A DNA stretch of 15,639 bases from Clostridiales bacterium. GTDB taxonomy: Bacteria > Bacillota > Clostridia > Lachnospirales > Lachnospiraceae. A program made the position numbers and the translations under genes. This document shows positions 2 through 15,300 of this stretch, piece after piece; the first letter of the stretch is position 1, and each line of letters starts with the position of its first letter. The DNA lies in NCBI GenBank assembly GCA_021203115.1, contig JAJQBV010000059.1:1-15639 (forward strand). The letters are read 5' to 3'. The notes beneath the pieces are model-generated. The model worked only from the letters and a program-made list of their open reading frames with translations, did no database searches and was not told the DNA's origin.

Positions 2-286
2 CATGTGACAGACACCATGTGCAAGACGAAGGGCTACAAGGAATATTACATGAAGTCCATTCTCGCCGACACTTCCGCGGTGACCGGTCTTGAGATGATC
101 CGCCGGACGGTCGGCATGGCAAATGTCAAGGATCTGACCACGATCGAGGATGAGAAAGCCCGGGCGCGCGCGGAGCGCATCTGCATCACGGCGGCGATTG
201 ATTTTATCAAGAACCGGGATGATAAAGCCTGTGGCAAGTGCTTCCTCAGAACCCTGAAAGAGGCCGTAGCGGCCGTGGATGCTTAA
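2..286 (+). CDS. mtnK: 5-methylthioribose kinase, C-terminal fragment (cut by window edge)
   Basis: The reading frame is open to the left edge, so only the last ~94 residues are seen; the full family length is about 400. MtnK phosphorylates 5-methylthioribose (and in some species 5-deoxyribose) at the C1 hydroxyl with ATP, in the cytoplasm. The visible part fits the helical C-terminal end of the family: TSAVTGLEMIRRTVGMANV, a D-L-T-T-I-E-D-E-K-A-R-A-R-A-E-R segment, then an AIDFIKNRD helix. A GTG at 5 is only an in-frame valine, not a believable start, because it lies inside the conserved domain. The stop is 34 bases before the mtnA start, so the two are very probably co-transcribed; the mtnA partner strongly supports the call. 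The sugar specificity cannot be judged from this fragment. Confidence 0.85.
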   Translation, partial: HVTDTMCKTKGYKEYYMKSILADTSAVTGLEMIRRTVGMANVKDLTTIEDEKARARAERICITAAIDFIKNRDDKACGKCFLRTLKEAVAAVDA

Positions 287-320
287 ACGGGCGTAAGATT
301 TGTATAAGGAAGATTTTGAA

Positions 321-1433
321 ATGGCAAACGCACTAAATCTGGATACCGTCGTCCTCTCGGAAGACGGGAAAAGTATCGTGATTCTTGACCAGACACTGCT
401 GCCGGGAAAGACCGAGTATCTTTCTCTGGATAAAGCGGAGGATATCTGGGAGGCGATTTATAAACTGCGCGTGAGAGGGGCGCCGGCGATCGGCGTGACC
501 GGAGGCTTTGCCTACTATGTGCTCGCCTCGCAGGTGGAGACGGACGACATGGATCAGTTCGTCGCGGAGTGTACGAAGATTATGGAGTATGTAAACTCTT
601 CCCGTCCGACAGCGGTGAACTTAAGCTGGGCGCTGAACCGGATGCACGCGGTGCTGCTCGCGGAGAAGGACGGCAAGACCGTTGCGCAGATGAAGGAGCG
701 CCTGAAAGAGGAGTCCATCGCGATCCGCGAGGAGGACATTCAGATCAGCCGCAACATCGGCGCATACGGATACGAGCTGCTTGAACAGCTCGGAAAGGGC
801 GTGGGTGTTATGACACACTGCAACGCCGGTACGCTGGCCACAGCGAAGTACGGCACGGCGCTCGCCCCGATTTACATTGCTCTGGAAAAGGGATGGGATC
901 CGAAAAAGGATCTGCATGTCTATTGCGATGAGACGAGACCGCTCCTGCAGGGGGCACGGCTTTCCGCCTATGAGATGCAGACCGCCGGAGTCGATACCTA
1001 TGTGCAGTGTGACAATATGGCTTCCTACACGATGAAGTCCGGCAAGATCGGAATTATCTTTGTGGGGTGTGACCGCGTGGCGGCCAACGGCGACTTTGCG
1101 AACAAGATCGGAACCAGCGGCGTCGCGATCATCGCGAAGCATTACGGGATTCCGTTCTATGTCTGCGCACCGTCCTCCACCATCGACATGACGATGGCAT
1201 CGGGCGATGAGATTCATATCGAGCAGCGCAAGCCGGAGGAGGTCACGGAGATGTGGTATGAGGAGCGCATGGCTCCGGAGGGAGTGGGCGTCGTGAACCC
1301 GGCCTTCGATGTGACAGACCACAGCCTTGTGACCGGTATCATCACCGAGAAGGGGATCGCGACAGCGCCGTTTAAAGAGTCCTTCGAGAAGATGGGTATC
1401 CGTCCGGTTGAAAAGTTTGTAGACAAAAAGTAA
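321..1433 (+). CDS. mtnA: S-methyl-5-thioribose-1-phosphate isomerase
   Basis: This 370-residue enzyme of the eIF2B-alpha/MtnA fold interconverts 5-methylthioribose-1-phosphate and 5-methylthioribulose-1-phosphate; family members can also take 5-deoxyribose-1-phosphate. Family landmarks are clear: RVRGAPAIG near the N terminus, THCNAGTLAT with the catalytic Cys at 167, and GCDRVAANGDFANKIGT with the catalytic Asp at 251 (roles known from the family). The length is normal. I chose ATG 321 over an upstream in-frame TTG at 300 because AAGGA (306-310) sits 10 bases before it and the conserved fold begins at the later codon. It follows mtnK directly and runs convergent to the deoR-type gene with only 3 bases between the stop codons. 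Its product would feed the class II aldolase gene beyond that regulator. Confidence 0.95.
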   Translation: MANALNLDTVVLSEDGKSIVILDQTLLPGKTEYLSLDKAEDIWEAIYKLRVRGAPAIGVTGGFAYYVLASQVETDDMDQFVAECTKIMEYVNSSRPTAVNLSWALNRMHAVLLAEKDGKTVAQMKERLKEESIAIREEDIQISRNIGAYGYELLEQLGKGVGVMTHCNAGTLATAKYGTALAPIYIALEKGWDPKKDLHVYCDETRPLLQGARLSAYEMQTAGVDTYVQCDNMASYTMKSGKIGIIFVGCDRVAANGDFANKIGTSGVAIIAKHYGIPFYVCAPSSTIDMTMASGDEIHIEQRKPEEVTEMWYEERMAPEGVGVVNPAFDVTDHSLVTGIITEKGIATAPFKESFEKMGIRPVEKFVDKK

Positions 1434-1436
1434 GGT

Positions 1437-2189
1437 TTAATATATGTCGATCTGGTGCTCGGCGAGATAGTCCTGCCACTCCGTCGGAAGCGTGCAGTCC
1501 GTGATGACGCCGTCCACATCGGTGAGCGGTGCGATAAACGAGAAGGAGACGTTGTTGATCTTGGAGTGATCAAACACGAGATACTTCTGGTTCGCGTGGG
1601 CAAGGGCTGTCTGGTGCAGCTTCGCACGGTCGTCGTTGGTATCGGTTATGCCATACTCCAGATCGACACTCCGGCAGGAGATAAAGGCCTTATCCACGTA
1701 ATAGTTCTCAAGTGCGCGGATGGTTCCCACCCCGACAAAGTCCATATAGTCGGATGAGAACTTTCCGCCGATCACATGAAGCTTTACCGTGCCGGAATCC
1801 GCAAGGATATTGGCGATCTCCAGAGAGGATGTCAGAACCGTGATCTTCCGTCCGGTGAGCATCCGGGCGATGGACCAGCAGGTGGTAGAGCCGTCGAGGA
1901 AAATATAATCGCCGGCCAGAATCAGGGAGCTGCACTTTTGCGCAATGATCTCCTTTTCCGGAACCTTGATCACCTTCCGCAGATGCGGATCCAGGTCGTT
2001 CTGGACACCGTCGAGGATATAGGCGCCGCCGTGGGTGCGGATGAGCTCGTTATTCTGCTCCATCTCCTTCAGGTCGCGGCGAATGGTTTCTTTGGTGACA
2101 TTTAACTTTTCAGCGAGGCTTGCGATGCGGACGCTTTTGTGCTCCTGCAGTTCTTCGCGTATCGCTGCTTTGCGTGCGATGGCCAGCAT
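1437..2189 (-). CDS. DeoR-family transcriptional regulator
   Basis: This 250-residue protein has the standard DeoR/GlpR layout. The N-terminal winged helix-turn-helix (about residues 1-57) contains the family signature: VRIASLAEKLNVTKETIRRD followed by L-K-E-M-E. The C-terminal DeoR sensor domain (about 75-235) is of the kind that binds phosphorylated sugars, with a D-G-S-T-T segment and an F-D-H-S-K-I motif. The start ATG at 2189 is preceded by a strong minus-strand GGGAGGGA (2197-2204) at 7-base spacing. It lies between mtnA and the microcompartment operon and is divergent from the latter. It is therefore the likely local repressor of the operon and of itself. The effector is inferred to be a ribulose-1-phosphate intermediate or DHAP, but the sequence does not prove this. 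Confidence 0.9.
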   Translation of the reverse strand: MLAIARKAAIREELQEHKSVRIASLAEKLNVTKETIRRDLKEMEQNNELIRTHGGAYILDGVQNDLDPHLRKVIKVPEKEIIAQKCSSLILAGDYIFLDGSTTCWSIARMLTGRKITVLTSSLEIANILADSGTVKLHVIGGKFSSDYMDFVGVGTIRALENYYVDKAFISCRSVDLEYGITDTNDDRAKLHQTALAHANQKYLVFDHSKINNVSFSFIAPLTDVDGVITDCTLPTEWQDYLAEHQIDIY

Positions 2190-2219
2190 AGTGATGTCCC
2201 TCCCGATTCTGTTTATATA

Positions 2220-2239
2220 TTATGTAAAATATAACATAA
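2220..2239. promoter_or_regulatory. Inverted repeat, probable DeoR operator
   Basis: TTATGT (2220-2225) and ACATAA (2234-2239) form a perfect 6-bp inverted repeat with an 8-base AT spacer. It lies between the divergent deoR-type gene and the aldolase operon and covers the -10 of the deoR promoter. Its position makes it the best operator candidate; binding is inferred. Confidence 0.5.
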
Positions 2240-2256
2240 GTACTGACAAAATGCAA
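2228..2256 (-). promoter_or_regulatory. Promoter of the deoR-type gene
   Basis: On the minus strand a -35 TTGCAT (2251-2256) is separated by 17 bases from -10 TATATT (2228-2233). The -10 is preceded by TGT, an extended -10. Spacing and match fit a sigma-A promoter. It overlaps an inverted repeat at 2220-2239, which fits self-repression. I found no equally clear rightward promoter for the aldolase operon in 2190-2329. Confidence 0.65.
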
Positions 2257-2329
2257 TCAGAGAGCGGCGGGAACTGGGCGGCATCAGTAACATTTACAAA
2301 AATAAGAAATTACACAGTGGGGAAAATAT

Positions 2330-3202
2330 ATGAGTTACCAGTTTGAATCCCAGTATCCGGGAGATTATGAAGTAAAAAAGACCATCCTGGAGATCGGACG
2401 CAGGATGTACGCCAAAAATTTCGTGGCGGCCAATGACGGGAATATCAGTGCAAAGGTCAGCGACGACACGATCTGGTGTACTCCTACGGGAGTATCAAAG
2501 GGATACATGACCGATGATATGCTGGTGCTGATGGATCTGGACGGCAATGTCATAAAGGGAAACTGCAAACCGTCCAGTGAGGTTAAAATGCACCTGCGGG
2601 TCTACAATGAGAATCCGGATGTAAAGGCAGTGGTGCATGCGCACCCGCCGGCAGCGACATCCTACGCGATCGCGGGGCTTCCGCTGAACCGGGCCATTCT
2701 CACCGAGGCTGTTATGGGAATCGGCGAAATTCCGCTGGCTCCCTACGCGATGCCGGGGACTGAGGAGGTGCCGGATTCCATCACGCCGTTCATCCGCTCC
2801 CATAACGGATGCCTGTTGGCAAACCACGGGGCAATCACATGGGGAAAGGATGCCATGGAGGCGTGGATGCGGATGGAGTCCGTGGAATATTACGCGCTGG
2901 TGAGCATGTACACGAACGCTCTGATCGGCCAGGCGAATGAGCTGACCTGCTCGCAGGTGGACCGCCTGATCGAGCGGCGCACCAACAGCGGGATATACAC
3001 CGGAGGACGCCCGCTCTGCCGCAACTGCGGTCCGGACGGCGTACCGGCCTGCGCGAAGGGCGGCTGCAGTCACGACCACAGCGGTGATTCGTCATCGCAT
3101 ACATGTTCCTGCGGCGGCAGCACAGATGAGGAAAAAAATGAGGCCGAGATGGTCGCACAGATCGTGCGGCAGATTCTCTCGGACAACAGATTCCGCGGAT
3201 GA
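2330..3202 (+). CDS. Class II (fuculose-phosphate-type) aldolase with C-terminal encapsulation peptide
   Basis: The 290-residue product has a zinc-dependent FucA/AraD-type domain (about residues 8-222) and a ~68-residue extension that ordinary family members (~215 residues) lack. Visible active-site residues are Glu84 in KPSSEVKMH and zinc ligands His103/His105 in HAHPP and His166 in LANHG. The family splits ketose-1-phosphates into DHAP and an aldehyde. Next to mtnK-mtnA the likely substrates are 5-deoxyribulose- or 5-methylthioribulose-1-phosphate. The extension holds a Cys/His-rich linker (Cys230, 233, 241, 246, 259, 261) and ends in an amphipathic helix, AEMVAQIVRQILSDNR, typical of microcompartment targeting peptides. 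GGGGA (2319-2323) precedes ATG 2330. Alternatives are a fuculose/rhamnulose-phosphate aldolase or the related dehydratase MtnB. The SSE motif and the microcompartment context favour an aldolase. Confidence 0.9.
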   Translation: MSYQFESQYPGDYEVKKTILEIGRRMYAKNFVAANDGNISAKVSDDTIWCTPTGVSKGYMTDDMLVLMDLDGNVIKGNCKPSSEVKMHLRVYNENPDVKAVVHAHPPAATSYAIAGLPLNRAILTEAVMGIGEIPLAPYAMPGTEEVPDSITPFIRSHNGCLLANHGAITWGKDAMEAWMRMESVEYYALVSMYTNALIGQANELTCSQVDRLIERRTNSGIYTGGRPLCRNCGPDGVPACAKGGCSHDHSGDSSSHTCSCGGSTDEEKNEAEMVAQIVRQILSDNRFRG

Positions 3203-3223
3203 CAGAAAGCAGGTGATGCAGGA

Positions 3224-4297
3224 GTGAAATTAGATAAGGCCGCAATCCGGCGTATCGTGCTGACACAGATCGCCGGAAGCGGAGAGGGAAAATACATCCC
3301 GATCGGAATTTCCGCACGCCATGTCCATCTGTCCGCTGCCGATCTGGCCGTACTGTTCGGAGAGGGAAGCACCCTGCATCCGATCCGTGCGCTGACCCAG
3401 CCGGGACAGTTCGCAGCCAGAGAGCAGGTGACCGTCGTCGGACCCGGAGGAAGTCTGGAGCATGTGAGAGTGCTCGGACCGACGCGGGCGAAGAGCCAGA
3501 TCGAGATTTCAGTTTCGGATTCCTTCAAAATCGGCGTGAAGAAATGTCCGATCCGGCTTTCCGGTGATCTGGACGGCTCCATGGGTGTCACGCTCATCGG
3601 CCCGAAGGGACGGGTCACGCTGGATGAAGGGTTGATCGTGGCGGCGCGCCACATACATATGAGCGAAGCGGAAGCGTTAGTTTACGGCGTTCACGACAGA
3701 CAGGTCGTCGCGGTCCGGGTCGGGGGCGAGCGCCCCTGTACCTTGGAAAATGTGATCTGCCGCGTCGGAAGCGGCCATGCGCTGGAGCTGCACCTTGACA
3801 CAGATGAGGCGAACGCCTGCGGTCTGGGTGCGGATGATCTGGTCGGACTGGTATCGTCCGGGGAGATCTCACCGCCGCTGAGAGAGGCAGAAAGGAGTCA
3901 GGCTGTGGAGAAACGGAATTTGACAGACGGTACAAGGTGCCATCCGATGGCTGCGTCAAACGAGGACTGTGATTTCGGCAGCCGGAACGCGGACGCGTCG
4001 GGACTTCCGGATTATATGGAGGGATACCGGCCGTGCATACCCAAGGTGTGGCGGGAGCCGACACCGGCACAGAAGCATGCGGCCCCGATTGTTTCCGGAG
4101 CAGACGCCGCGGCGTGCGGCGAGCCCGTTCTGGAGCTTGTGACGGAGCGGGATATCAACGATGCCTTCCGTGACAACAAAAAGCAGATTTACTGCGAGAA
4201 AAAGGCACTGATCACACCGGCAGCCCGGGAGCGCGCCGAGGCGATGGAGATAAAGATTATCCGTGTGAGAGGAGGCGGGACCGGCGAATGCAGATAG
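3224..4297 (+). CDS. pduL: PduL-type phosphate acyltransferase with extra C-terminal EutQ-like domain
   Basis: PduL swaps CoA for phosphate on acyl-CoA inside the shell, giving acyl-phosphate and recycling CoA. Residues 1-18 form a predicted amphipathic targeting helix. Two PTAC beta-barrel halves follow, each with its zinc-binding motif: ARHVHLS (His33, His35) and ARHIHMS (His143, His145). The normal PduL length of ~210 residues is reached near residue 218, but the frame continues to 357. The extra part has a low-complexity stretch (about 219-300). It ends in a segment at 303-352 containing LVTERDINDAF and ALITPAARERAEAMEIKIIR, which resembles the N-terminal piece of EutQ and similar tails in BMC proteins. 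The GTG start is supported by AGGTGA at 3211-3216, and it follows the aldolase stop by 21 bases. An internal start at 3905 is noted separately. Confidence 0.88.
   Translation: MKLDKAAIRRIVLTQIAGSGEGKYIPIGISARHVHLSAADLAVLFGEGSTLHPIRALTQPGQFAAREQVTVVGPGGSLEHVRVLGPTRAKSQIEISVSDSFKIGVKKCPIRLSGDLDGSMGVTLIGPKGRVTLDEGLIVAARHIHMSEAEALVYGVHDRQVVAVRVGGERPCTLENVICRVGSGHALELHLDTDEANACGLGADDLVGLVSSGEISPPLREAERSQAVEKRNLTDGTRCHPMAASNEDCDFGSRNADASGLPDYMEGYRPCIPKVWREPTPAQKHAAPIVSGADAAACGEPVLELVTERDINDAFRDNKKQIYCEKKALITPAARERAEAMEIKIIRVRGGGTGECR
3891..3907 (+). promoter_or_regulatory. Strong internal ribosome site and GTG start inside the pduL frame
   Basis: AAAGGAG (3891-3897), then 7 bases, then an in-frame GTG (3905-3907). 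This is better than the site of pduL itself and lies just after the end of the canonical PduL domain. It could produce a separate 130-residue protein (3905-4297) carrying only the EutQ-like tail. Whether it is used is unknown. Confidence 0.5.
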
Positions 4298-4605
4298 GAA
4301 GAGTGGTAGGGACTGTGGTGAGCACATCAAAGTCCGAGAAGATCAACGGGTTGAAGATGCTGCTGGTCAAGCCCATCGACATTGAGACCTTTGAGGAAAA
4401 AGGAAACATCGTGGTCGCGTTTGACGCGGTGGGCGCGGGAGAAGGCGAGGTCGTCATGATCGTCTCCGGTTCCTCATCCAGACAGACCGCACTGACGGAC
4501 AACAAACCGTCGGATACGGCGATCATCGCGATCATTGATTATATTGATCTGCACAACGAGCGGATCTTCAGCAAAGAGAAAGATACCAGGGAGGTGAGTG
4601 ACTGA
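4288..4605 (+). CDS. BMC-P (EutN/CcmL-type) shell vertex protein, first copy
   Basis: The 105-residue product is a pentameric shell protein that caps the vertices of the icosahedral microcompartment. The family start is plain, MQIGRVVGTVVSTSKSEKI, followed by GLKMLLVKPI, a V-A-F-D-A-V-G-A-G-E-G-E-V-V core and the closing strand AIIAIIDYIDL. The length is slightly above the usual 85-95 because of a charged C-terminal tail. ATG 4288 overlaps the end of pduL by 10 bases and has GAGGAGG upstream (4269-4275 region), so translation is probably coupled. The stop overlaps the next start (ATGA-type junction at 4603-4607). It is one of three BMC-P genes here. Confidence 0.93.
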   Translation: MQIGRVVGTVVSTSKSEKINGLKMLLVKPIDIETFEEKGNIVVAFDAVGAGEGEVVMIVSGSSSRQTALTDNKPSDTAIIAIIDYIDLHNERIFSKEKDTREVSD

Positions 4606-6017
4606 TGCTAACGAAGGAACAGATCGAACAGATCGTTCGGATGACCATTGAACAGGTGGATCGTCAGGGCGGATCCTCCGCCTGTGCACCGGCATCGGGA
4701 AACGGGTGGATGTTTGACCGCGTGGACGACTGTGTCAGAGCAGCCTCGGCCGCGCAGAAGAAGCTGGCCGGAATGAGCATTGACGCGCGGGAGGCACTGA
4801 TCCGTGCCATGCGGAAGGCATCTGTGGATAACGCGCAGAAGCTGGCGCAGATGGCGCATGACGAGACCGGGTACGGAAAGGTTTCGGACAAGGTCCAGAA
4901 GATTTTGCTGGTGGCCAACAAGACGCCGGGAACGGAGGATATCGAGCCGCGTGTCTTTACCGGCGATCACGGGATAACACTGGTGGAGCAGGCGCCTTAC
5001 GGGGTCATCGGTTCCATCACACCGTCCACCAACCCGCCGGGAACGATCATCAACAATTCCATCAGCATGATCGCGGGCGGAAACGCGGTGGTATATAACC
5101 CGCACCCCGCGGCGGTAAAATGCTGTCAGGAGACAATGCGGATCTTAAACGAGGCAATCGTTGCAGCCGGAGGTCCGATGGGCCTGATCTGCTGCCCGAC
5201 CACGCCGAATATGGATACCAGCGCGGACCTGATGAGCCATCCGGACATCAAGATGCTTTCTGTCACCGGCGGCGAGGCTGTCGTATCCATCGCCATGAAG
5301 AGCGGAAAGAAATGTATTTCCGCCGGACCGGGCAATCCGCCGGTTATCGTTGACGAGACGGCGGACATCCCGCAGGCGGCGAAGGACACCGTGGACGGCG
5401 CATCCTTTGACAACAACGTGCTCTGTGTTGCGGAAAAGGAGTGTTTTGTGGTAAACTCTGTATTTGACATGTTCATGAGTGAGATGCAGAAGCACGGCGC
5501 GTATCTTGTCCGGGGAAATGACATCGACAAAATCGTCCGGACGGTCATCAACGAGAAGGACGGAAAATATTCGGCAAACAAGAATTTTGTAGGGCATGAT
5601 GCCACCTACATCCTGCAGCAGTCCGGCGTATCCTACACCGGAGATCCGCGGCTGATCATTGCGGATGTCCCGAAGGATCACCCGTTCGTGATCGTGGAGA
5701 TGCTGATGCCGGTGCTCGGCTGTGTCCGCTGCTCCGATGTGGATCAGGCGATCGACTGGGCGGTGGAGGCAGAGCACGGATGCCAGCATTCCGCGATGAT
5801 GCACTCCACAAATTATAAGAACATGACAAAAGCGGCACGGGCAGTCAACACGACGATCTTTGTGAAGAACGGACCGTCCACCGCGGGGGTCGGCTTTAAC
5901 GGCGAGGGCTATGCGACACTCACCATTGCGACGCCCACGGGCGAGGGTCTGACCTCGGCCCGAAGCTTTACCAGAGCACGCCGCTGCGTTTTAAAAGACG
6001 GATTCCGCATTATTTAA
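4605..6017 (+). CDS. pduP: CoA-acylating aldehyde dehydrogenase, microcompartment type
   Basis: The 470-residue enzyme is of the PduP/EutE family. It oxidises an aldehyde with NAD+ and CoA to acyl-CoA within the shell. Residues 2-20 form an amphipathic N-terminal targeting helix (EQIEQIVRMTIEQV), separated from the catalytic domain by a Gly/Ser/Ala linker. Family landmarks include ITPSTNPPGTIINN, SVTGGEAVV and ISAGPGNPPVIVD. The catalytic Cys274 sits in FDNNVLCVAEKE. The length is normal. The start overlaps the BMC-P stop and has GGAGGTGAG just upstream. The expected substrate is acetaldehyde (from 5-deoxyribulose-1-phosphate) or 2-(methylthio)acetaldehyde; the sequence does not tell which. 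The EutE/PduP distinction is also uncertain, although the N-terminal peptide favours PduP. Confidence 0.93.
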   Translation: MLTKEQIEQIVRMTIEQVDRQGGSSACAPASGNGWMFDRVDDCVRAASAAQKKLAGMSIDAREALIRAMRKASVDNAQKLAQMAHDETGYGKVSDKVQKILLVANKTPGTEDIEPRVFTGDHGITLVEQAPYGVIGSITPSTNPPGTIINNSISMIAGGNAVVYNPHPAAVKCCQETMRILNEAIVAAGGPMGLICCPTTPNMDTSADLMSHPDIKMLSVTGGEAVVSIAMKSGKKCISAGPGNPPVIVDETADIPQAAKDTVDGASFDNNVLCVAEKECFVVNSVFDMFMSEMQKHGAYLVRGNDIDKIVRTVINEKDGKYSANKNFVGHDATYILQQSGVSYTGDPRLIIADVPKDHPFVIVEMLMPVLGCVRCSDVDQAIDWAVEAEHGCQHSAMMHSTNYKNMTKAARAVNTTIFVKNGPSTAGVGFNGEGYATLTIATPTGEGLTSARSFTRARRCVLKDGFRII

Positions 6018-6023
6018 ACAGAT

Positions 6024-7322
6024 ATGGGAATGATTCAAATGATTCGGGATGCCGGCGTCGTGGGTGCAGGCGGAGCCGGATTTCCAACCGATCGAAAATT
6101 AGACTGCAAGGCGGAGATCCTGATTATCAACGGGATCGAGTGCGAGCCGCTGCTTCGGACAGATCGCCATGTTATGGAGAACTATGCGATGGAAATTGTC
6201 CTGGCTGTCCGAATGATTCGGGACAACCTGAAGGCAAAGCGGGCAGTGATCGCACTGAAAAAGCATTATGAGAAGGCCGTGGAAGCCCTCCGCGATGCCG
6301 TAAAAGGGATGAAGGTGGAGCTTTACCTGTCGGATTCCTTTTACCCGGCGGGTGATGAGCAGAATCTGGTGTACTGCGTGACCGGACGGACGGTTCCGAC
6401 CGGCGGGATTCCGCTGGATGTGGGATGTGTCGTCAGCAATGTCAGCACGGTGTTAAACATCGCGCGGGCGCTGGAGGGCCAGCCGGTGACGGAGAAGATG
6501 GTGACGGTCGCGGGAAGCGTGGCGAATCCGGTGACGGTAAACTGTGCGATCGGGACACCGCTCTCACTCCTTCTGGATGCGGCGGGCGGTCCGGTGGGCG
6601 ATTGTACCTACATCATCGGAGGTCCCCTGATGGGGCGTGTGACCGATGACCTGTCCGAACCGGTGACGAAAACGACCGGCGGGCTTCTGGCGATTCCGAA
6701 GGGACACACCATTCTCTCAAAGAAAATGTTGGGAGAGCGGGATGCCATGCTGGCGCGGGCAGTCTGCTGCCAATGTTCCATGTGTACGCAGATGTGTCCC
6801 AGAAACGCCATGGGGCTGGATGTGCAGCCGCACAAGGCGATGCGGGCGTTTGCTTCCGGGAACGGCACTTTGCTCGGCAGGGTAAACGGTATTTTCTCCT
6901 GCTGTGACTGCGGCGTCTGTACCTACTACGCCTGCAATTTCGGGTTAAAGCCCGGCAAGGTGATGCAGGAGATGAAGGGCGCGCTGCAGAAGAACAGTGT
7001 CCGACCGGTGAAGGAAGTAAAATACAAGGCGGACAGCGGGATTGAGAACAAGCGGGTGCCCACGGAGCGGCTCCTGCAGCGGCTCGACCTGAAAAAGTTC
7101 GACCGGGATGCCCCGATGGTCGGATTCGTGGACTGCGATGAGGTCCGGATACCGCTGCGGATGCATATCGGCGCACCGGACAAACCGGTGGTACAGGCAG
7201 GGCAGCGGGTACATAAAGGCGATCTGATTGCGGAGCCGCAGGGGATGGGAGCACGGATCCACGCTTCCATCGACGGGACGGTTACCCGGGTGACAGATCA
7301 GGCAATAGAGATAAGGAAGTGA
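6024..7322 (+). CDS. pduS: PduS-like RnfC-family flavin/Fe-S oxidoreductase
   Basis: The 432-residue protein resembles PduS and RnfC. Residues 9-22 carry the glycine-rich RnfC nucleotide/FMN signature (AGVVGAGGAGFPT), followed by NGIECEPLLRTDRH. Two 4Fe-4S motifs follow: Cys248-x2-Cys251-x2-Cys254-x3-Cys258 and Cys293-x2-Cys296-x2-Cys299-x4-Cys304. A C-terminal barrel-sandwich segment ends the protein. PduS reduces cobalamin in B12-dependent compartments, but no B12 enzyme is seen here. Its likelier job is to reoxidise the NADH made by the aldehyde dehydrogenase and pass electrons to the neighbouring BMC-T. It starts 6 bases after the pduP stop with no good Shine-Dalgarno, so coupled translation is likely; ATG 6030 is an alternative start. 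Confidence 0.9.
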   Translation: MGMIQMIRDAGVVGAGGAGFPTDRKLDCKAEILIINGIECEPLLRTDRHVMENYAMEIVLAVRMIRDNLKAKRAVIALKKHYEKAVEALRDAVKGMKVELYLSDSFYPAGDEQNLVYCVTGRTVPTGGIPLDVGCVVSNVSTVLNIARALEGQPVTEKMVTVAGSVANPVTVNCAIGTPLSLLLDAAGGPVGDCTYIIGGPLMGRVTDDLSEPVTKTTGGLLAIPKGHTILSKKMLGERDAMLARAVCCQCSMCTQMCPRNAMGLDVQPHKAMRAFASGNGTLLGRVNGIFSCCDCGVCTYYACNFGLKPGKVMQEMKGALQKNSVRPVKEVKYKADSGIENKRVPTERLLQRLDLKKFDRDAPMVGFVDCDEVRIPLRMHIGAPDKPVVQAGQRVHKGDLIAEPQGMGARIHASIDGTVTRVTDQAIEIRK

Positions 7323-7326
7323 GATT

Positions 7327-7872
7327 ATGAGCGCGATTGGGATGAATGAGATCATGAGCATTCCCACAGGCATGCTCGCCTGCGATACCATGCTGAAGGC
7401 GGCCGATGTAGAGCTGGTCGGCGCCGGCTGTGTCTGCGCAGGCAAATATTACATCGTCGTCACGGGCGAGGTGGCTGCGGTCCGCTCCTCCGTGGAGGCG
7501 GGACGGGAGGCTGCCGAAAGCCTTCTGATCGACAGCCTTGTCATACCGAATGTCGACCCGCAGGTCGCTCCGGCGATTTCCGCGTGCACCATCGTGGATC
7601 ACCTGCAGGCGCTGGGCATCATGGAGACCTATTCGCTCTGTGCGGCGGTTCAGGCGGCGGATGCGGCGGCAAAGGCCGCGGAGGTGGATCTGCTGGAAGT
7701 TCGGCTGGGGCGCGGCCTGGGCGGAAAATCGTTTATCTTGCTGACCGGGGAGGTGGCTGCGGTGCAGTCCTCCATTCAGGCGGCAGAAGCGCTGGAGGAG
7801 ACAAAAGGGCTGATGGCGAAAAGCACCGTCATTCCCTCTCCGCACCCGGATATGCTTCGCGCAATCGGGTGA
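7327..7872 (+). CDS. pduT: BMC-T (tandem-domain, PduT-like) shell protein
   Basis: The 181-residue product contains two BMC folds (about 1-90 and 95-181) and forms trimers that take the place of hexamers in the shell. Each half shows the typical pattern of an opening helix, a strand, and a G-E-V-A-A-V-x-S-S helix start (VVTGEVAAVRSSVEAG and LLTGEVAAVQSSIQAA). In the first half, Cys37 in GCVCAGKYY sits where PduT has the pore cysteine that holds a 4Fe-4S cluster (family knowledge; Cys35 is also close). The gene directly follows pduS (start 5 bases after the stop, AGGAAG at 7314-7319). The same pairing in other metabolosomes supports an electron-relay role. Confidence 0.9.
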   Translation: MSAIGMNEIMSIPTGMLACDTMLKAADVELVGAGCVCAGKYYIVVTGEVAAVRSSVEAGREAAESLLIDSLVIPNVDPQVAPAISACTIVDHLQALGIMETYSLCAAVQAADAAAKAAEVDLLEVRLGRGLGGKSFILLTGEVAAVQSSIQAAEALEETKGLMAKSTVIPSPHPDMLRAIG

Positions 7873-7933
7873 TGAACACAGGTAACTCTTATAGATTACA
7901 TAAATCAAATATAAAATAATGGAGGTAAAAACA
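7873..7933 (+). promoter_or_regulatory. AT-rich leader and strong ribosome site of the BMC-H gene
   Basis: This is the longest gap inside the operon and is markedly AT-rich. It ends in a full GGAGGT (7921-7926) 7 bases before ATG 7934, the strongest site in the operon. TATAAA (7910-7915) could be a -10, but no -35 match lies at the right distance, so a promoter is doubtful. High BMC-H expression is the likely purpose. Confidence 0.4.
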
Positions 7934-8224
7934 ATGAAGGAAGCATTAGGGATGGTTGAGACCAGAGGACTTATCGGTTCGATCGAGGCGGCGGATGCCA
8001 TGGTTAAGGCGGCAAATGTACATCTGATCGGGAAAGAGCAGATCGGATCCGGTCTGGTGACCGTTATGGTGCGCGGGGATGTCGGCGCCGTGAAATCCGC
8101 GGTGGACGCGGGTGCTGCGGCGGCAAAGCGTGTCGGAGAGCTTTACGGAGTACATGTCATTCCGCGTCCGCATGCAGAGGTGGAGTATATCCTTCCGAAG
8201 CTGGATATTCCGGTCGAGGAGTAG
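7934..8224 (+). CDS. BMC-H (PduA/EutM-type) hexameric shell protein
   Basis: The 96-residue single-domain BMC protein forms the flat hexameric tiles that make up most of the shell facets. Typical features are [20 protein letters not shown] at the start, then [12 protein letters not shown], the pore-proximal [18 protein letters not shown], and IPRPHAEVE near the end. The length is usual for PduA/EutM. ATG 7934 is chosen over an ATG at 7919 because GGAGGT (7921-7926) lies between them at ideal spacing and the fold starts at the later codon. It is the only BMC-H gene in the window, so it must either build all facets with BMC-T or be joined by copies elsewhere. BMC-P genes follow at once. Confidence 0.95.
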
Positions 8225-8227
8225 GAA

Positions 8228-8494
8228 ATGTATACCGGTGTAGTGGTCGGCTCGGTTGTCGCGACCGTAAAGGATCCTGCACTTGAGGGAGTTCCGCTGC
8301 TGGTCGTCCGGAAGGTTGAAAACGGGAAGGAGGCCGGGCTGATCGTTGCAGCGGATCAGACCCGGCAGGCCGGCCCCGGGGACCATATTTATATGATCGG
8401 GTCCAAGGAGGCTGCGAGGATTTACCGGCGGGGAAATATCCCGGTGGATGTGGCGATCGTAGGCTTTATCGACACATATAACGAGGAACTGTGA
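8228..8494 (+). CDS. BMC-P (EutN/CcmL-type) shell vertex protein, second copy
   Basis: The 88-residue product is of canonical BMC-P length. It opens with MYTGVVVGSVVATVKDPALE, then GVPLLVVRKV, a central V-A-A-D-Q-T segment, A-G-P-G-D-H-I-Y-M-I-G, and the closing strand VDVAIVGFIDTYNEEL. It would form pentamers at shell vertices. ATG 8228 starts 3 bases after the BMC-H stop, and its GAGGAG ribosome site lies within the end of that gene. It is clearly different in sequence from the copies at 4288 and 8526, so the three are diverged paralogues and not recent duplicates. Confidence 0.93.
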   Translation: MYTGVVVGSVVATVKDPALEGVPLLVVRKVENGKEAGLIVAADQTRQAGPGDHIYMIGSKEAARIYRRGNIPVDVAIVGFIDTYNEEL

Positions 8495-8525
8495 CAGGAT
8501 TTTCGCGCGGACAGGGGGTGTGACG

Positions 8526-8822
8526 GTGCGGCTGGCAAAGGTTGTGGGAAATGTAGTTTCCACAGTGAAGGACGATGGATATTACGGATATAAGCTGATG
8601 CTGGTGGAGTATTTCGACCCGGTCACGGGAGCCCCCGAAGGCCCGCGGATGATCGCGTTTGACGGCGTTGACGCGGGCGTGGGCGATACCGTTCTGGTGA
8701 ACACGGACGGCGGCGCCGGAAACATGGTGTTTGACGATGACTACGGTATTTTTGACCTCGTCATCTGCGGCATTGTGGACCGTTATACGGTCTACGGCGA
8801 GACGAAGGTGTTTCATGGGTAG
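8526..8822 (+). CDS. BMC-P (EutN/CcmL-type) shell vertex protein, third copy
   Basis: The 98-residue product begins MRLAKVVGNVVSTVKDDGYY, a classic EutN/CcmL opening. It continues with GYKLMLVEYFDPVTG, M-I-A-F-D-G-V-D-A-G-V-G-D-T-V-L-V and the closing FDLVICGIVDRYTVYG. GTG 8526 is preferred over the GTG at 8520: the AGGGGG run (8513-8518) then sits 7 bases upstream and the protein begins exactly at the family N terminus. A 31-base gap separates it from the previous gene. It is closest in layout to the first copy (shared M-L-V and A-F-D/G-A-G-x-G-x-x-V pattern), as judged by eye. Confidence 0.92.
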   Translation: MRLAKVVGNVVSTVKDDGYYGYKLMLVEYFDPVTGAPEGPRMIAFDGVDAGVGDTVLVNTDGGAGNMVFDDDYGIFDLVICGIVDRYTVYGETKVFHG

Positions 8823-8872
8823 TCCGGTTTCACATGGATATGAATCCATCATCTGTTTATGGCGGTGATTTT

Positions 8873-9388
8873 ATGGAAGAAAACAAAGCAGCAGACGGCA
8901 CGCTCCTTGCGGAAGCGGAGAAAATCGCGGAGATATACGATGAGTTTACCCAGTCTGTCCGTTCGATCGGCAAAAAGGCAGACGGCTCCAAGCACGCCTC
9001 CGGGAAGATGGCGAGAAGCGTGGTCAACTGGATCGGCGGAAGCCATGTGAAGACCGAGCGGGATATCCTCTGCGACAAGTTTCTGGAGGATGTGCAAAAG
9101 CAACTGGAGTTTCTGGTGACCTGTCTGGAGGGCGTCCCCGCGGAGGAGGCCGCCGGGGTCTGCGGCGTTGCGGCCGACGTCATCACCGAGCCGCGGCCGG
9201 TGAAGTCAGACTCCACGACAGATCTGATGAAGCGCGCCATGATCGGGCAGGTGATTCCGCTGCTTCCCTATCTGCGGCAGGATCAGCTGGTGTCGATCCG
9301 CGACCGGATGGACAAAGCCTACACGAGATGGCAGCTTTTCCCTGTAGAAAAAGATGTGAAAAAAGCGATAGAGCGGCTGATTGCGTAA
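8873..9388 (+). CDS. Unrecognised helical protein, last gene of the microcompartment operon
   Basis: I do not recognise this 171-residue protein. It is rich in charged and helix-forming residues, has no signal peptide or membrane segment, and looks all-helical. Notable pieces are a helix with AEAEKIAEIYDEFTQSVRSI, a basic KKADGSKHASGKMARSVVNW stretch, D-K-F-L-E-D-V-Q-K-Q-L-E-F-L, and a conserved-looking segment with MKRAMIGQVIPLLPYLRQ. Two cysteines (in V-T-C-L-E-G and A-G-V-C-G-V) are visible. ATG 8873 is chosen because GGTGA (8864-8868) precedes it; ATGs at 8834 and 8840 lack a ribosome site. It lies 50 bases after the third BMC-P gene, on the same strand and before a hairpin. It is probably part of the operon, perhaps an assembly or cargo factor, but no function can be assigned. 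Confidence 0.75.
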   Translation: MEENKAADGTLLAEAEKIAEIYDEFTQSVRSIGKKADGSKHASGKMARSVVNWIGGSHVKTERDILCDKFLEDVQKQLEFLVTCLEGVPAEEAAGVCGVAADVITEPRPVKSDSTTDLMKRAMIGQVIPLLPYLRQDQLVSIRDRMDKAYTRWQLFPVEKDVKKAIERLIA

Positions 9389-11910: not shown

Positions 11911-14900
11911 ATGAAAAGAAAACGAAGCGCAAAACTACTCTGCCTGCTGCTGGCTCTGGCCATCTGCCTGGGCATGCCGCCATTTCTCTCGCTTGCCGGA
12001 TCTATTGAGGCATATGCGGCCGATACTAACACATGGGAAATCCCGATTGAGCTAAAGATTGAGACCAGCGGTAGTGCGGCGGCACCGGAGGAGACCTTTA
12101 CGCTGGAGATTCTCAACAATGATTATCAGCCGTGGGATATTACAGACACAACATACTGTAACTATGAAGCGACGATTGTTAACAATACGATAACTATAGG
12201 CGATAGTAATAGTACAAAAGTTTCGTATAGCGGATATGATTCATACACCGGAACACTTGAATTTACCGGAAATGGTGATTTGGCAGACGAAATCGCCTTT
12301 GGCTTTTTCGTGTGTCTGGAAAGTAATGATACGAATGGGTGGGAGTATGATGATACAATATATTATATTGAGCCTACTTATAGTGGTCAAACTTTGACGG
12401 GATATATAATTTACGATGATGATGATAAAAATAAGACCACCTTGCTTGACCGTGCTTCCTTCACCTGCACCTACACCGGCTACACCCTGACCCTTGACTC
12501 CGGTGAAGGCACGATTGACGGTGAAACCATTGCCAGCGTGACCGCGGCATCCGGAACCGCAATCGACCTTTCCTCCTATGTGCCGACCAGAGCCGGCTAT
12601 ACCTTTACCGGTTGGTATTTAAACGGCACTAAGGTAGACAGTATTACCCTGACCGGAGATACCGAAGTCACGGCAGGCTGGCAGAGATCCGCGATCACAG
12701 TCAGCTCCTACCTCGCGCTGGGCGACGACATCACCACCGGCTCCGGGGTAAGCAGCAGTGAGAGCTTCACTTCTCTTTTTGCCACCAAAGCGCTGGACAC
12801 CACGGGCGGCACGACATCCACAGTCAACGCGGGCGGGGAGGACAAGACAGCCGCCGGACTCCTCACCGAGATAAACAACGGCACTTACAATAGCGCGATT
12901 GACGCGGCGGACATCATCACCGTCACCGTCGGACAGAATGACCTGATGGATGCGTTCTATGAATTTATCGCGGACCTTTACTACACGGAGTATGGGGAGT
13001 CCATCACCGCCGATGCGGTCGAGGTCGCAATCATGGATCCCGGCGCAAGCACCGCGGTATTAAAGCAGGCGCAGAACCTGTTCACCATCTTAAACGGCGC
13101 AGACAACAGTGAAGCGTTGAAAGCAGATACGGATTTCAGCAGTGCCGTTGACGCCTGTGTGGCAAATATCAACGAGATTGCCGCACAGATCCACGCCATC
13201 AATCCGGATGCGGTCTTTCTGGTCGCCAACCTGTACAACCCCTACCAGTGGCTGGAGGACTGCGACAATATCTCCGGCCTGTTTGGCGCCGGACTCACGA
13301 TTTTTAACAACGCGCTCGCCGGCGGAAAGACTTCCGATTACACGATCGCGGATATCAACAGCGCATTTGCCGCTTCCGATACCTCGCTGACCAATGCCTC
13401 CGCGAATTTCTCTCCGCTGGAGTTCAGTTTTGATTTCCTTCCCAATGCGGCAGGACATCAGGTGATCGCAGACACGATGAAGGAAGCCTGCGATACCGCG
13501 ACGGCCGCCTACACATGGGAGATTCCGGTCATGGTAACCGTTCAGACCGGAGGCACCGCGGCGGTGCCGGAGCAGACGATCCAGTTTGAAATTTTAGATC
13601 CGGAAGGAAATGCGGTCGATATGTCCGGCGGGACGATCGTCGCCGACACCATAAACGTAAACGATGCCGGGGACTATGTCACCATATTTGAATTCTACGG
13701 AAACACTTCGTTTTACGAGAAACTGAACGACGGCTTTCTCGTGCGGCTGGTCAGCAGCGGCGCGGACGGCTGGAGCTATGACAGCACGGTTTATTATGCA
13801 GTATCTTATTTTGACGAGGGAACCACGGAAATTTCAAACAACAGCAGCGGTGCAGCTGTGACCATGGCCTCCTTTGCCTGCACCTATACCGGTTACACCC
13901 TGACCTTTGATACCAACGGCGGCAGCACCATTGACAGCGTGGGCGGCATTTCGATTGACCTGTCTGCTTATGAGCCGACCAGAGCCGGTTACAATTTTAC
14001 CTCGTGGTATTCTGACAGCGCACTGACTAATGCGGTGACAAGCCTCACGCTGACCGGAGACACCACCGTCTATGCGGGCTGGCAGGCAACGGTAACCGGT
14101 TCGGCGACTGCCACGGCGGCCAATTACACGACGCTGGGCGACAGCATTACCACCGGCTCCGGGCTGAGCAACGCAAGCAGCCAGAGTTATGTCTCCCTGT
14201 TTTCCGGAAACATTCAGGCGACGAACACGAACAACCAGAGCAGCGACGACTGGACCACCACCGATCTTCTGAGCGCGGTGCAGAGCGGCTCCTATGACGA
14301 TGCGATCGAGGATGCGGATGTGATCACTATCACCATCGGGGAAAATGATCTGATGAACACCTTCTGCTCCGTTCTCGCGGATATTTACAATGAAGAGGTC
14401 GTAACGGCATCCTCCACCGCTGCAACCGGCACAGGCGGTACGATTCAGCTGGCAGGCATGTCGGGCAGCAGCGCGAAAGACTATCAGCTCACAACGCTTT
14501 CGGAGACCACAGGCATCACCATCACGGCCGACGACATCCGCAGCATCCTGTCGACGGCAGGCAGTTTGTCCGGAACCGCGCTGGGGCAGGGCTACGATCT
14601 GTTCGTCCTGTTTAACAGCACGGACTACGGCAGCATCGTGACCTCCTCCGACACATTTACCGTCGCCGTTGACAAATGTATCGATAACATCAACAGTATT
14701 GCCGCCGCGATAAAGGCAATGAATCCAAACGCGACCATCCTTATCGCCAACCAGTACAACCCCTATCAGTGGCTGTCCGGATGCGACAATCTTGTCAGCA
14801 TGTTTGATGCGGGAATCACATCCTACAACAGCAGGCTCGCCGAGAAGCAGACTTCGGATTACTCGATCGCGGATGTCTATTCCGCATTTACTGCCTCCAA

Positions 14901-15300
14901 GGCATCGCTGACCAACGTGGAAGTGAAGCTTTTGACAATGACCTTCAACTTTGACACCAATCCCAATGCGGCGGGGCATCAGGTACTTGCCGATACGCTG
15001 TATGTCGCCTACGCATACGCTGCGTCCTCAGATACTGAGTCCGGCAATGTTGTGTCCGATAATACCGCATCCGGAAAAGTTGTGTCCGATAATACCGTGT
15101 CTGCTGACACCGCATCCGGCAATACCACTTCTGCAGATGCTGCAGCCTCCGATATCACAACCGGCACAGCCGCGACAACTGCCGCCGCAGCGAATACAGG
15201 CGACAGCAGACTCATCCGATACTATCTGATCGTCCTCGCTGCCGCTGCCTGTGTGCTGATTGGATTGTATGCCAGGGATAAGAAACTGAAGCAAAAATAA
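11911..15300 (+). CDS. Cell-surface protein with two pilin-like/InlB-like/SGNH-like units and C-terminal anchor
   Basis: The 1129-residue secreted protein starts at ATG 11911 (CGGAGGT at 11896-11902). A signal peptide (1-36, cleavage near AYA|AD) is followed by two homologous units (about 41-534 and 535-1035). Each unit has three parts. The first is a ~150-residue beta domain resembling Spy0128-type pilin modules, starting TWEIP. The second is an InlB/Flg_new-type repeat (191-258 and 662-726, with PTRAGYxFTxW). The third is an SGNH-hydrolase-like domain. In SGNH copy 1 the GDS serine is Asp273 and the HPN histidine is Leu510. In copy 2 Ser745 is present but the histidine is Asn1017. Both keep GxND (341-344, 810-813). 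A Ser/Thr/Ala/Asp-rich stalk (about 1038-1094), an NTGD motif (1095-1098), a membrane helix (about 1104-1120) and a Lys-rich tail suggest sortase or membrane anchoring. Its role may be binding or structural. Confidence 0.82.
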   Translation: MKRKRSAKLLCLLLALAICLGMPPFLSLAGSIEAYAADTNTWEIPIELKIETSGSAAAPEETFTLEILNNDYQPWDITDTTYCNYEATIVNNTITIGDSNSTKVSYSGYDSYTGTLEFTGNGDLADEIAFGFFVCLESNDTNGWEYDDTIYYIEPTYSGQTLTGYIIYDDDDKNKTTLLDRASFTCTYTGYTLTLDSGEGTIDGETIASVTAASGTAIDLSSYVPTRAGYTFTGWYLNGTKVDSITLTGDTEVTAGWQRSAITVSSYLALGDDITTGSGVSSSESFTSLFATKALDTTGGTTSTVNAGGEDKTAAGLLTEINNGTYNSAIDAADIITVTVGQNDLMDAFYEFIADLYYTEYGESITADAVEVAIMDPGASTAVLKQAQNLFTILNGADNSEALKADTDFSSAVDACVANINEIAAQIHAINPDAVFLVANLYNPYQWLEDCDNISGLFGAGLTIFNNALAGGKTSDYTIADINSAFAASDTSLTNASANFSPLEFSFDFLPNAAGHQVIADTMKEACDTATAAYTWEIPVMVTVQTGGTAAVPEQTIQFEILDPEGNAVDMSGGTIVADTINVNDAGDYVTIFEFYGNTSFYEKLNDGFLVRLVSSGADGWSYDSTVYYAVSYFDEGTTEISNNSSGAAVTMASFACTYTGYTLTFDTNGGSTIDSVGGISIDLSAYEPTRAGYNFTSWYSDSALTNAVTSLTLTGDTTVYAGWQATVTGSATATAANYTTLGDSITTGSGLSNASSQSYVSLFSGNIQATNTNNQSSDDWTTTDLLSAVQSGSYDDAIEDADVITITIGENDLMNTFCSVLADIYNEEVVTASSTAATGTGGTIQLAGMSGSSAKDYQLTTLSETTGITITADDIRSILSTAGSLSGTALGQGYDLFVLFNSTDYGSIVTSSDTFTVAVDKCIDNINSIAAAIKAMNPNATILIANQYNPYQWLSGCDNLVSMFDAGITSYNSRLAEKQTSDYSIADVYSAFTASKASLTNVEVKLLTMTFNFDTNPNAAGHQVLADTLYVAYAYAASSDTESGNVVSDNTASGKVVSDNTVSADTASGNTTSADAAASDITTGTAATTAAAANTGDSRLIRYYLIVLAAAACVLIGLYARDKKLKQK
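15049..15097 (+). repeat. 30-bp direct repeat in the stalk region
   Basis: GTTGTGTCCGATAATACCG occurs at 15049-15067 and again at 15079-15097, a 30-bp period encoding V-V-S-D-N-T repeats in the low-complexity stalk. Such repeats commonly expand and contract by slippage, changing stalk length. Confidence 0.7.

Follow-up and report, generated by a model that had tools for sequence, protein, structure and literature searches.

We analysed contig JAJQBV010000059.1 of a gut-type Clostridiales bacterium, which is 15,639 bases long and is referred to here in its entirety as the window. The window carries mtnK and mtnA next to an operon for a class II aldolase, aldehyde-processing enzymes and shell proteins of a bacterial microcompartment (BMC). 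We think, with a probability of roughly 0.78, that it encodes a 5-deoxypentose metabolosome, that is, a dihydroxyacetone phosphate (DHAP) shunt of which the aldehyde-producing step would take place inside the BMC. The genes themselves, their conserved linkage in other genomes, the clades of the aldolase and of PduP, and the tail of the aldolase can be read directly from the sequence.

From these features we infer the substrate, the encapsulation, the electron route and the regulation by a DeoR-family protein as follows. A ribose-type ABC transporter would import 5-deoxyribose (perhaps also 5-methylthioribose). MtnK would phosphorylate the sugar at C1 and MtnA would isomerise it, both in the cytosol, and the resulting 5-deoxyribulose-1-phosphate would pass into the shell. 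There the class II aldolase, retained by its C-terminal helix, would cleave 5-deoxyribulose-1-phosphate to DHAP and acetaldehyde. DHAP would leave the shell for glycolysis, PduP would convert acetaldehyde to acetyl-CoA with formation of NADH, and PduL would convert acetyl-CoA to acetyl-phosphate with release of CoA. PduS, together with the BMC-T protein, would carry the electrons out of the shell.

Genes of the window and of its congeners

The original prediction described mtnK and mtnA beside a regulator and an operon of an aldolase, PduP, PduL, PduS and BMC-H, BMC-T and BMC-P shell genes, and all of these genes were confirmed by profile matches. Since the contig starts inside mtnK, the 5' part of this gene for 5-methylthioribose / 5-deoxyribose kinase is missing, and the window holds its last 94 codons only (2-286, plus strand; TIGR01767, E = 6.1e-18, profile positions 323-389 of 401). 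The gene mtnA for methylthioribose-1-phosphate isomerase (300-1433, plus strand; TIGR00512, 409.3 bits, cut-off 279) probably starts at the ATG at 321, which matches the start in the congener. A gene for a DeoR-family regulator follows, divergent from the aldolase operon (1437-2189, minus strand; PF00455, E = 2e-44; PF08220, E = 9.8e-16). The stretch that separates deoR from the aldolase operon (2190-2329) is presumably the control region; the operator and promoter search of it gave no sigma-70 match and no clear palindrome.

The aldolase operon lies on a single strand, the plus strand, with intergenic gaps of -10 to 50 bp. It comprises the class II aldolase, which we propose as the signature enzyme (2330-3202; PF00596, E = 2.5e-52), PduL phosphate acyltransferase (3224-4297; PF06130, E = 1.8e-71, residues 26-201 of 357), a BMC-P (EutN/CcmL) shell pentamer protein (4288-4605; PF03319, E = 4.8e-28), a PduP/EutE-type CoA-acylating aldehyde dehydrogenase with an N-terminal amphipathic stretch (4605-6017; NF011927, 646.7 bits, cut-off 403), a PduS/RnfC-like flavo-iron-sulfur protein presumed to regenerate NAD+ (6024-7322; PF01512, PF13534, PF13375), a PduT-like BMC-T tandem-domain shell protein (7327-7872; PF00936, two domains), a BMC-H shell hexamer protein (7919-8224; PF00936, E = 1e-29), two more BMC-P shell proteins (8228-8494, PF03319, E = 5e-18; 8520-8822, PF03319, E = 2.4e-19) and a last protein that is described at the end of this report. 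That is, PF00936 is represented by two proteins with three domains and PF03319 by three proteins. The host genome contained three PF00936 matches, all on the window contig. This genome is 1.69 Mb in size and 79.75% complete, so absences in it are weak evidence.

The metabolosome core enzymes, CoA-acylating aldehyde dehydrogenase (NF011927) and phosphotransacylase (NF011652), both scored above cut-off. PduS is present, and a core alcohol dehydrogenase was found neither in the window nor in the congener locus L256; metabolosomes that lack this enzyme are described in a passage of PMC4207490. Among the window open reading frames scanned, genes for diol dehydratase, for a glycyl radical enzyme and for fucose/rhamnose use were not found, which upholds the original prediction on this point, nor was either marker of the SPU class (pfam01791 aldolase and pfam02502 RpiB).

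The congener search covered 20 genomes of the genus, the host included. An aldolase 98-99% identical to that of the window was present in two other congeners (G421 and G417). The locus in G421, L256, has 97.3% DNA identity to the window over 9.4 kb, and its order is substrate-binding protein, RbsA-like ATPase, RbsC-like permease, full MtnK (TIGR01767, 374.9 bits, cut-off 275), MtnA, DeoR, aldolase and BMC operon. The original prediction had named 6-deoxyhexose genes left of the window as contrary evidence. They were not found; the transporter, MtnK and MtnA occupy this place in L256, and fucose/rhamnose reference proteins gave no match in the L256 region. CoA-transferase and CoA-disulfide reductase were also found neither in the window nor in L256, nor were a glycyl radical enzyme and its activase, the markers of the GRM5 class. 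The G417 locus, on a 5.5-kb contig, begins at the aldolase and extends into shell genes, and its upstream part is cut off. Ten further congeners gave a weaker aldolase match (44-50% identity), and five of these ten were examined: in L258-L260 the aldolase lay within a glycyl-radical-enzyme BMC locus, which in L258 also had RhaB, RhaA and RhaD, and in L261 and L262 there was no BMC gene in range.

The original prediction also spoke of a metabolosome for waste nucleosides. The metabolosome part of this claim is supported, but the nucleoside source is not shown: the ribose-type ABC transporter suggests uptake of the free sugar, and the locus revealed no nucleosidase.

Linkage of mtnA, the clades and the aldolase tail

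The window aldolase was searched against 392 genomes of the order, the host included, of which 96 matched at E <= 1e-30. From these, 97 stretches of no more than 20 kb were classified, G208:C19 being added later as L231, and eight weaker matches (E 5e-35 to 3e-31) were left out. One of these, G080:C16:97-372, is a contig-start aldolase fragment, 60% alike and followed by PduP, and is possibly a further locus with its upstream part missing. A wider scan covered 84,980 species, each represented by a single genome; from at least 577 confirmed loci the best 80, ranked by likeness to the window aldolase, were used, and shares taken from them are biased. Labels were given by tblastn/blastp within each stretch, with the window, L040 and E. 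coli fucose/rhamnose proteins as annotation references. L134 was labelled as being without BMC as PduP was not found, although PduL, PduS and shell genes are present. The same-locus pairs L036/L137, L045/L167 and L047/L181 were removed from counts of distinct loci and kept in tree row counts.

The original prediction proposed a genome search for BMC loci in which the aldolase occurs together with mtn genes, and its outcome was favourable. In the order-wide sample mtnA was nearby in 13/13 BMC loci with a window-clade aldolase and in 0/45 other BMC loci (Fisher p = 3e-13, though the loci are mutually related); after merging loci 95% alike, the values were 12/12 and 0/44. With this linkage, a chance neighbourhood of mtn genes and BMC was rejected. 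The prediction had further regarded the same BMC operon without mtnK/mtnA as contrary evidence. The loci nearest in aldolase and PduP, L133, L135, L136 and L256, carry both genes, but L138 is a true exception.

In both samples together, mtnA occurred with PduP and shell or PduL genes in 36 distinct loci including the window. Because the arrangement recurs in the congener and these genes stand together in 35 further distinct loci, we think that it is beyond chance. MtnK was present in 35 of the 36 (L039 is cut by the contig end), RbsA-like and RbsC-like proteins in 32 each, CoA-disulfide reductase in 29, a CoA-transferase pair in 28 and PduS in 8. Glycyl radical enzyme, activase, Zn-type alcohol dehydrogenase (Zn-ADH) and PduO-like protein were in 0/36, as against 20, 19, 46 and 34, respectively, of the 46 BMC loci outside the clade, a group that includes a few rows belonging to neither large aldolase clade. 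In all 36 loci mtnA and the aldolase are on one strand; mtnA is directly upstream (12-194 bp) in 13, separated by the DeoR gene in 16 and downstream in 7. The named loci of this type among the best 80 belong to Lacrimispora, Anaerocolumna, Paenibacillus, Gracilibacillus, Clostridium and a Treponema metagenome-assembled genome. Type strains with the locus include Anaerocolumna aminovalerica DSM 1283 and Lacrimispora xylanisolvens DSM 3808.

Two observations concern the makeup of these operons. A solute-binding-protein-like gene (PF01547) lies inside the BMC operon in 19 of the 36 distinct loci (for example L040:14279-15394), with no obvious signal peptide by eye. In L040:15411-19899, which belongs to the second lineage described below, CoA-disulfide reductase, a CoA-transferase pair, an Fe-type alcohol dehydrogenase (Fe-ADH) and a Dak1 domain lie 3' of the shell genes.

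In the aldolase tree (a quick tree of 179 rows, duplicates included), the window clade had an SH-aLRT support of 100, a branch length of 0.81 and 98 rows. It contained 38/38 rows with mtn and BMC, 45/46 mtn rows without BMC (L119 lies elsewhere), 5 other BMC rows, 9 other rows and one row, L060, labelled fucose/rhamnose from a weak FucK match. The 12 fucose/rhamnose rows with BMC sit in a different clade of 64 rows. An aldolase of the fucose/rhamnose clade is the mark of the PVM and PVM-like classes, and the window aldolase lies in the other clade with support of 100, in a tree that knowingly held no PVM rows of Planctomycetes/Verrucomicrobia. In the PduP tree, from which rows below 380 aa were excluded, the mtn-type rows formed two lineages, both separate from the rows of PVM-like and GRM5 loci (split support 83-86). 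The predicted distinction from the fucose/rhamnose aldolase type is clear in the aldolase tree and has weaker support in the PduP tree.

The first PduP lineage has ten rows (the window, L133, L135, L136, L165, L166, L175, L176, L178 and L193) and clusters first with PduP from a DeoC compartment (support 97), then with E. coli EutE (92). The second lineage has 36 rows, 30 of them labelled as mtn with BMC (support 99). The DeoC compartment, L232, has identities to the window of 84-86% (BMC-H), 56-62% (BMC-P), 50% (BMC-T), 49% (PduS) and 56% (PduP), and the family match of its DeoC (TIGR00126) starts at residue 41, that is, after a 40-residue N-terminal extension. Since the window PduP is near EutE and the PduP of the DeoC compartment, and the window shell proteins are near those of that compartment, the comparison points to acetaldehyde as the aldehyde, and hence to 5-deoxyribose as the substrate, for the window lineage. 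The identity of the aldehyde in the second lineage is less clear.

The FucA positions E73, H92, H94 and H155 are kept in the window aldolase as E84, H103, H105 and H166, and are kept in both clades; we take them to be the metal and catalytic positions. Pocket residues separate the two aldolase clades, and do not name a substrate. The best fold match of the window aldolase was DrdA (6btd), with FucA and YgbL narrowly behind. In the AlphaFold2 model (mean pLDDT 73), a low-confidence Cys-rich linker is followed by a helix of residues 266-285 (3125-3184, plus strand), the presumed encapsulation peptide. A Cys-rich linker between core and tail (3014-3124 in the window) is common to many BMC aldolases, whether they belong to the clade or not, and a metal or redox role is possible.

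A tail, defined as at least 25 residues past the conserved core, was present in 41/41 distinct BMC-linked clade aldolases as against 16/54 without BMC in range, and outside the clade in 46/46 aldolases with BMC. When no BMC was near the aldolase, shell genes were found elsewhere in the genome for 6/9 tailed clade loci versus 3/10 tailless ones; L156, L160, L163 and L169 are cases of a tailed aldolase with no BMC in the stretch and shell genes elsewhere. The original prediction gave the aldolase a targeting peptide. The tail is indeed there and encapsulation by it is presumed, but the kinase and the isomerase have no such tail, and because only the aldolase carries it, MtnK and MtnA are probably cytosolic.

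Alternative readings and known systems

Several points weigh against the 5-deoxypentose metabolosome. By sequence, the window aldolase is not nearer to DrdA than to FucA, and YgbL had the top score (phmmer against PDB sequences: YgbL 92.5 bits, FucA 83.8, DrdA 6btd 81.7). The hydrophobic moment beat that of shuffles at 0.05 in 15/43 tails, duplicates included, and the window tail stood at 0.095; moreover, this marker is not specific, the moment of the MtnK C-terminus being as high as that of the PduP N-terminus. The trees are quick ones with SH-aLRT support only and some long branches. In the window, which has no alcohol dehydrogenase, we assume that PduS recycles NAD+. For MTA/SAH nucleosidase, the host genome (80% complete) gave no more than a sub-cut-off match; this genome also has a third gene of the class II aldolase family, on contig C199. 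Finally, L138, of the second BMC lineage, has a clade aldolase and BMC without an mtnA match in its genome, and likewise no mtnA match was found in genome G396, whose locus L150 starts near a contig edge.

Enzymes of the MtnK/MtnA type take methylthioribose as well as 5-deoxyribose, which leaves the aldehyde unfixed (PMC6079011 and PMC10986504, in part). A possible but rather unlikely reading is therefore that the same compartment has methylthioribose as its main substrate and methylthioacetaldehyde as its aldehyde, for sulfur/methionine salvage. The kinase and isomerase of the window and L256 match models named for methylthioribose, and the CoA-disulfide reductase and CoA-transferase pair, frequent in loci with mtn and BMC as counted above, also favour it. 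So does a RuBisCO-like gene in the three nearest named loci; among NCBIfam models it matches those for MtnW best, though below cut-off. Against it, the window PduP groups with acetaldehyde enzymes, neither of these CoA enzymes is in the window or L256, and the RuBisCO-like gene is absent from both and was not found in the host genome. In L133 (8827-9993), L134 and L135 this gene separates deoR from the aldolase gene; the protein is below cut-off for both MtnW and OiaX models, and its best PDB match is 3qfw.

A generic sugar-1-phosphate compartment, in which the aldolase would cleave more than one 1-phosphoketose and mtnK/mtnA would be just one of several interchangeable front ends, is in our view improbable. 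It gains from the accepted range of DrdA, which according to a part of PMC6079011 includes several aldehydes, and from L138, where a nucleoside hydrolase (PF01156) is encoded upstream of the clade aldolase and BMC, and where a second class II aldolase, a weak FucK-like kinase and what by eye is an epimerase-like TIM barrel are encoded downstream. However, L138 alone is a clear exception among the five BMC loci of the clade that lacked mtnA in the stretch (L138, L148, L150, L158 and L161). In L158 and L161 the transporter, mtnK and mtnA lie further downstream, in L148 mtnA is on another contig, and L148 and L150 are near contig edges. Over the 15 genomes searched, mtnA was absent in six, those of L138, L150, L192, L210, L195 and L159. 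L233 shows the same pattern as L138, with BMC, a clade aldolase, the same flanking genes and no genomic mtnA match.

An ordinary metabolosome for fucose/rhamnose, of PVM-like or GRM5 type, beside which mtnK/mtnA lie by chance, is very improbable: the enzyme superfamily is the same, PVM-like loci are known in gut Firmicutes (PMC4207490 and PMC8156839, in part), the host has rhamnose isomerase and congener locus L258 is GRM5-like, but the aldolase and PduP clades, the mtnA linkage, and the absence of glycyl radical enzyme and Zn-ADH argue otherwise. As for the two sugars, rhamnose was rejected as the substrate of the window BMC, the host having a separate rhaB-rhaA-rhaD set with its own kinase and aldolase elsewhere in the genome, and the fucose route was rejected with no fucose isomerase (PF02952) match in the host genome.

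Among known systems, the 5-deoxypentose metabolosome is to be compared first with the DHAP shunts DrdK-DrdI-DrdA of Bacillus thuringiensis and MtnK-MtnA-Ald2 of E. coli ATCC 25922. The accessible text of PMC6079011 reports that the B. thuringiensis kinase accepts 5-deoxyribose and methylthioribose and that its three enzymes jointly convert methylthioribose to DHAP. As in these shunts, a kinase, an isomerase and a class II aldolase are clustered, a gene set present in both the window and L256, and the window aldolase has its closest fold in DrdA by a small margin. It is expected to make DHAP and acetaldehyde or methylthioacetaldehyde. In contrast to the shunts, this aldolase is distant in sequence and tailed, its operon also encodes shell proteins, PduP, PduL and PduS, and a ribose-type ABC transporter adjoins the window-type locus.

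Class II aldolase BMCs are known as PVM, PVM-like, GRM5, ACI and some MIC, for which the parts consulted of PMC4207490, PMC8217296, PMC8156839 and PMC6620236 name fucose/rhamnose derivatives as substrates. PVM, PVM-like and GRM5 loci resemble the window in a class II aldolase with C-terminal tail, PduP, PduL and often DeoR, but the window aldolase and PduP are of another clade, mtnK/mtnA replace the 6-deoxyhexose kinase, and there is no glycyl radical enzyme or Zn-ADH. The SPU or DeoC type, which forms acetaldehyde from 2-deoxyribose-5-phosphate, is alike in that an aldolase supplies acetaldehyde to aldehyde dehydrogenase and, in L232, in shell proteins near those of the window; it differs in that the window has, instead of DeoC, a class II aldolase whose substrate is expected to be a 1-phosphate, and no RpiB was found. 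In Acetobacterium woodii cluster 2 (pduU-pduV2), a shell gene also adjoins a methylthioribose kinase gene, but this cluster has two BMC-related genes only, and in a passage of PMC7593272 its authors deem the kinase unrelated to the function of the BMC. L231 has a BMC, a distant (33%) class II aldolase, a FucK-like kinase and Fe-ADH, along with RpiB-like and triosephosphate isomerase-like proteins named by eye.

No link of BMC to the 5-deoxyribose/methylthioribose DHAP shunt was found in open-access papers, supplements excluded. PMC12632272, on the E. coli shunt, nowhere mentions microcompartments, and the accessible parts of PMC5311937 (methylthioadenosine as a possible activase product), PMC11046441 (kinase fold) and PMC8147161 have no bearing on this link. 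These loci may well be catalogued already as BMC loci without a 5-deoxypentose substrate. We lean towards regarding them as a new functional BMC type, in which the DHAP-shunt aldolase has been enclosed separately in two BMC lineages and which could permit anaerobic fermentation of 5-deoxyribose. The two enclosing lineages may be an EutE/DeoC-like one, to which the window belongs, and another that includes Lacrimispora, Paenibacillus and Gracilibacillus among others.

Radical-SAM and polyamine reactions yield 5'-deoxyadenosine and methylthioadenosine as by-products, which are inhibitory when they accumulate. If our reading is true, anaerobes would use the sugar part of these compounds as food, with a shell around the step that releases the toxic aldehyde, and BMC loci otherwise readable as fucose/rhamnose-like would gain a testable substrate. 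E. coli with the open shunt showed no fermentative growth on 5-deoxyribose in the accessible text of PMC10986504. Unlike that open shunt, an enclosed shunt that conserves the aldehyde as acetyl-phosphate may support fermentation.

Further features of the window

PduL of the window has a C-terminal extension of about 150 aa. The end of this extension (VTERDI...KALITPAA) is similar to the end of the aldolase homologue P0048 and presumably resembles the EutQ N-terminus. The last operon gene (8873-9388, plus strand, ATG at 8873) encodes a 171-aa protein that is all-helical in its model (pLDDT 81.8). It had no Pfam or NCBIfam match, its fold search gave no match at E <= 0.001, and 26 matching proteins were found, itself included.

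Just past the BMC operon lies a gene for a TSCPD-domain protein (TIGR03905; 9451-9708, minus strand), and an alpha-amylase and a large GDSL-lipase protein are also encoded 3' of it. These three genes seem not to be part of the BMC operon. The large protein (11911-15300, 1129 aa) has two GDSL-lipase regions and Listeria-Bacteroides repeats, and is perhaps surface-attached.

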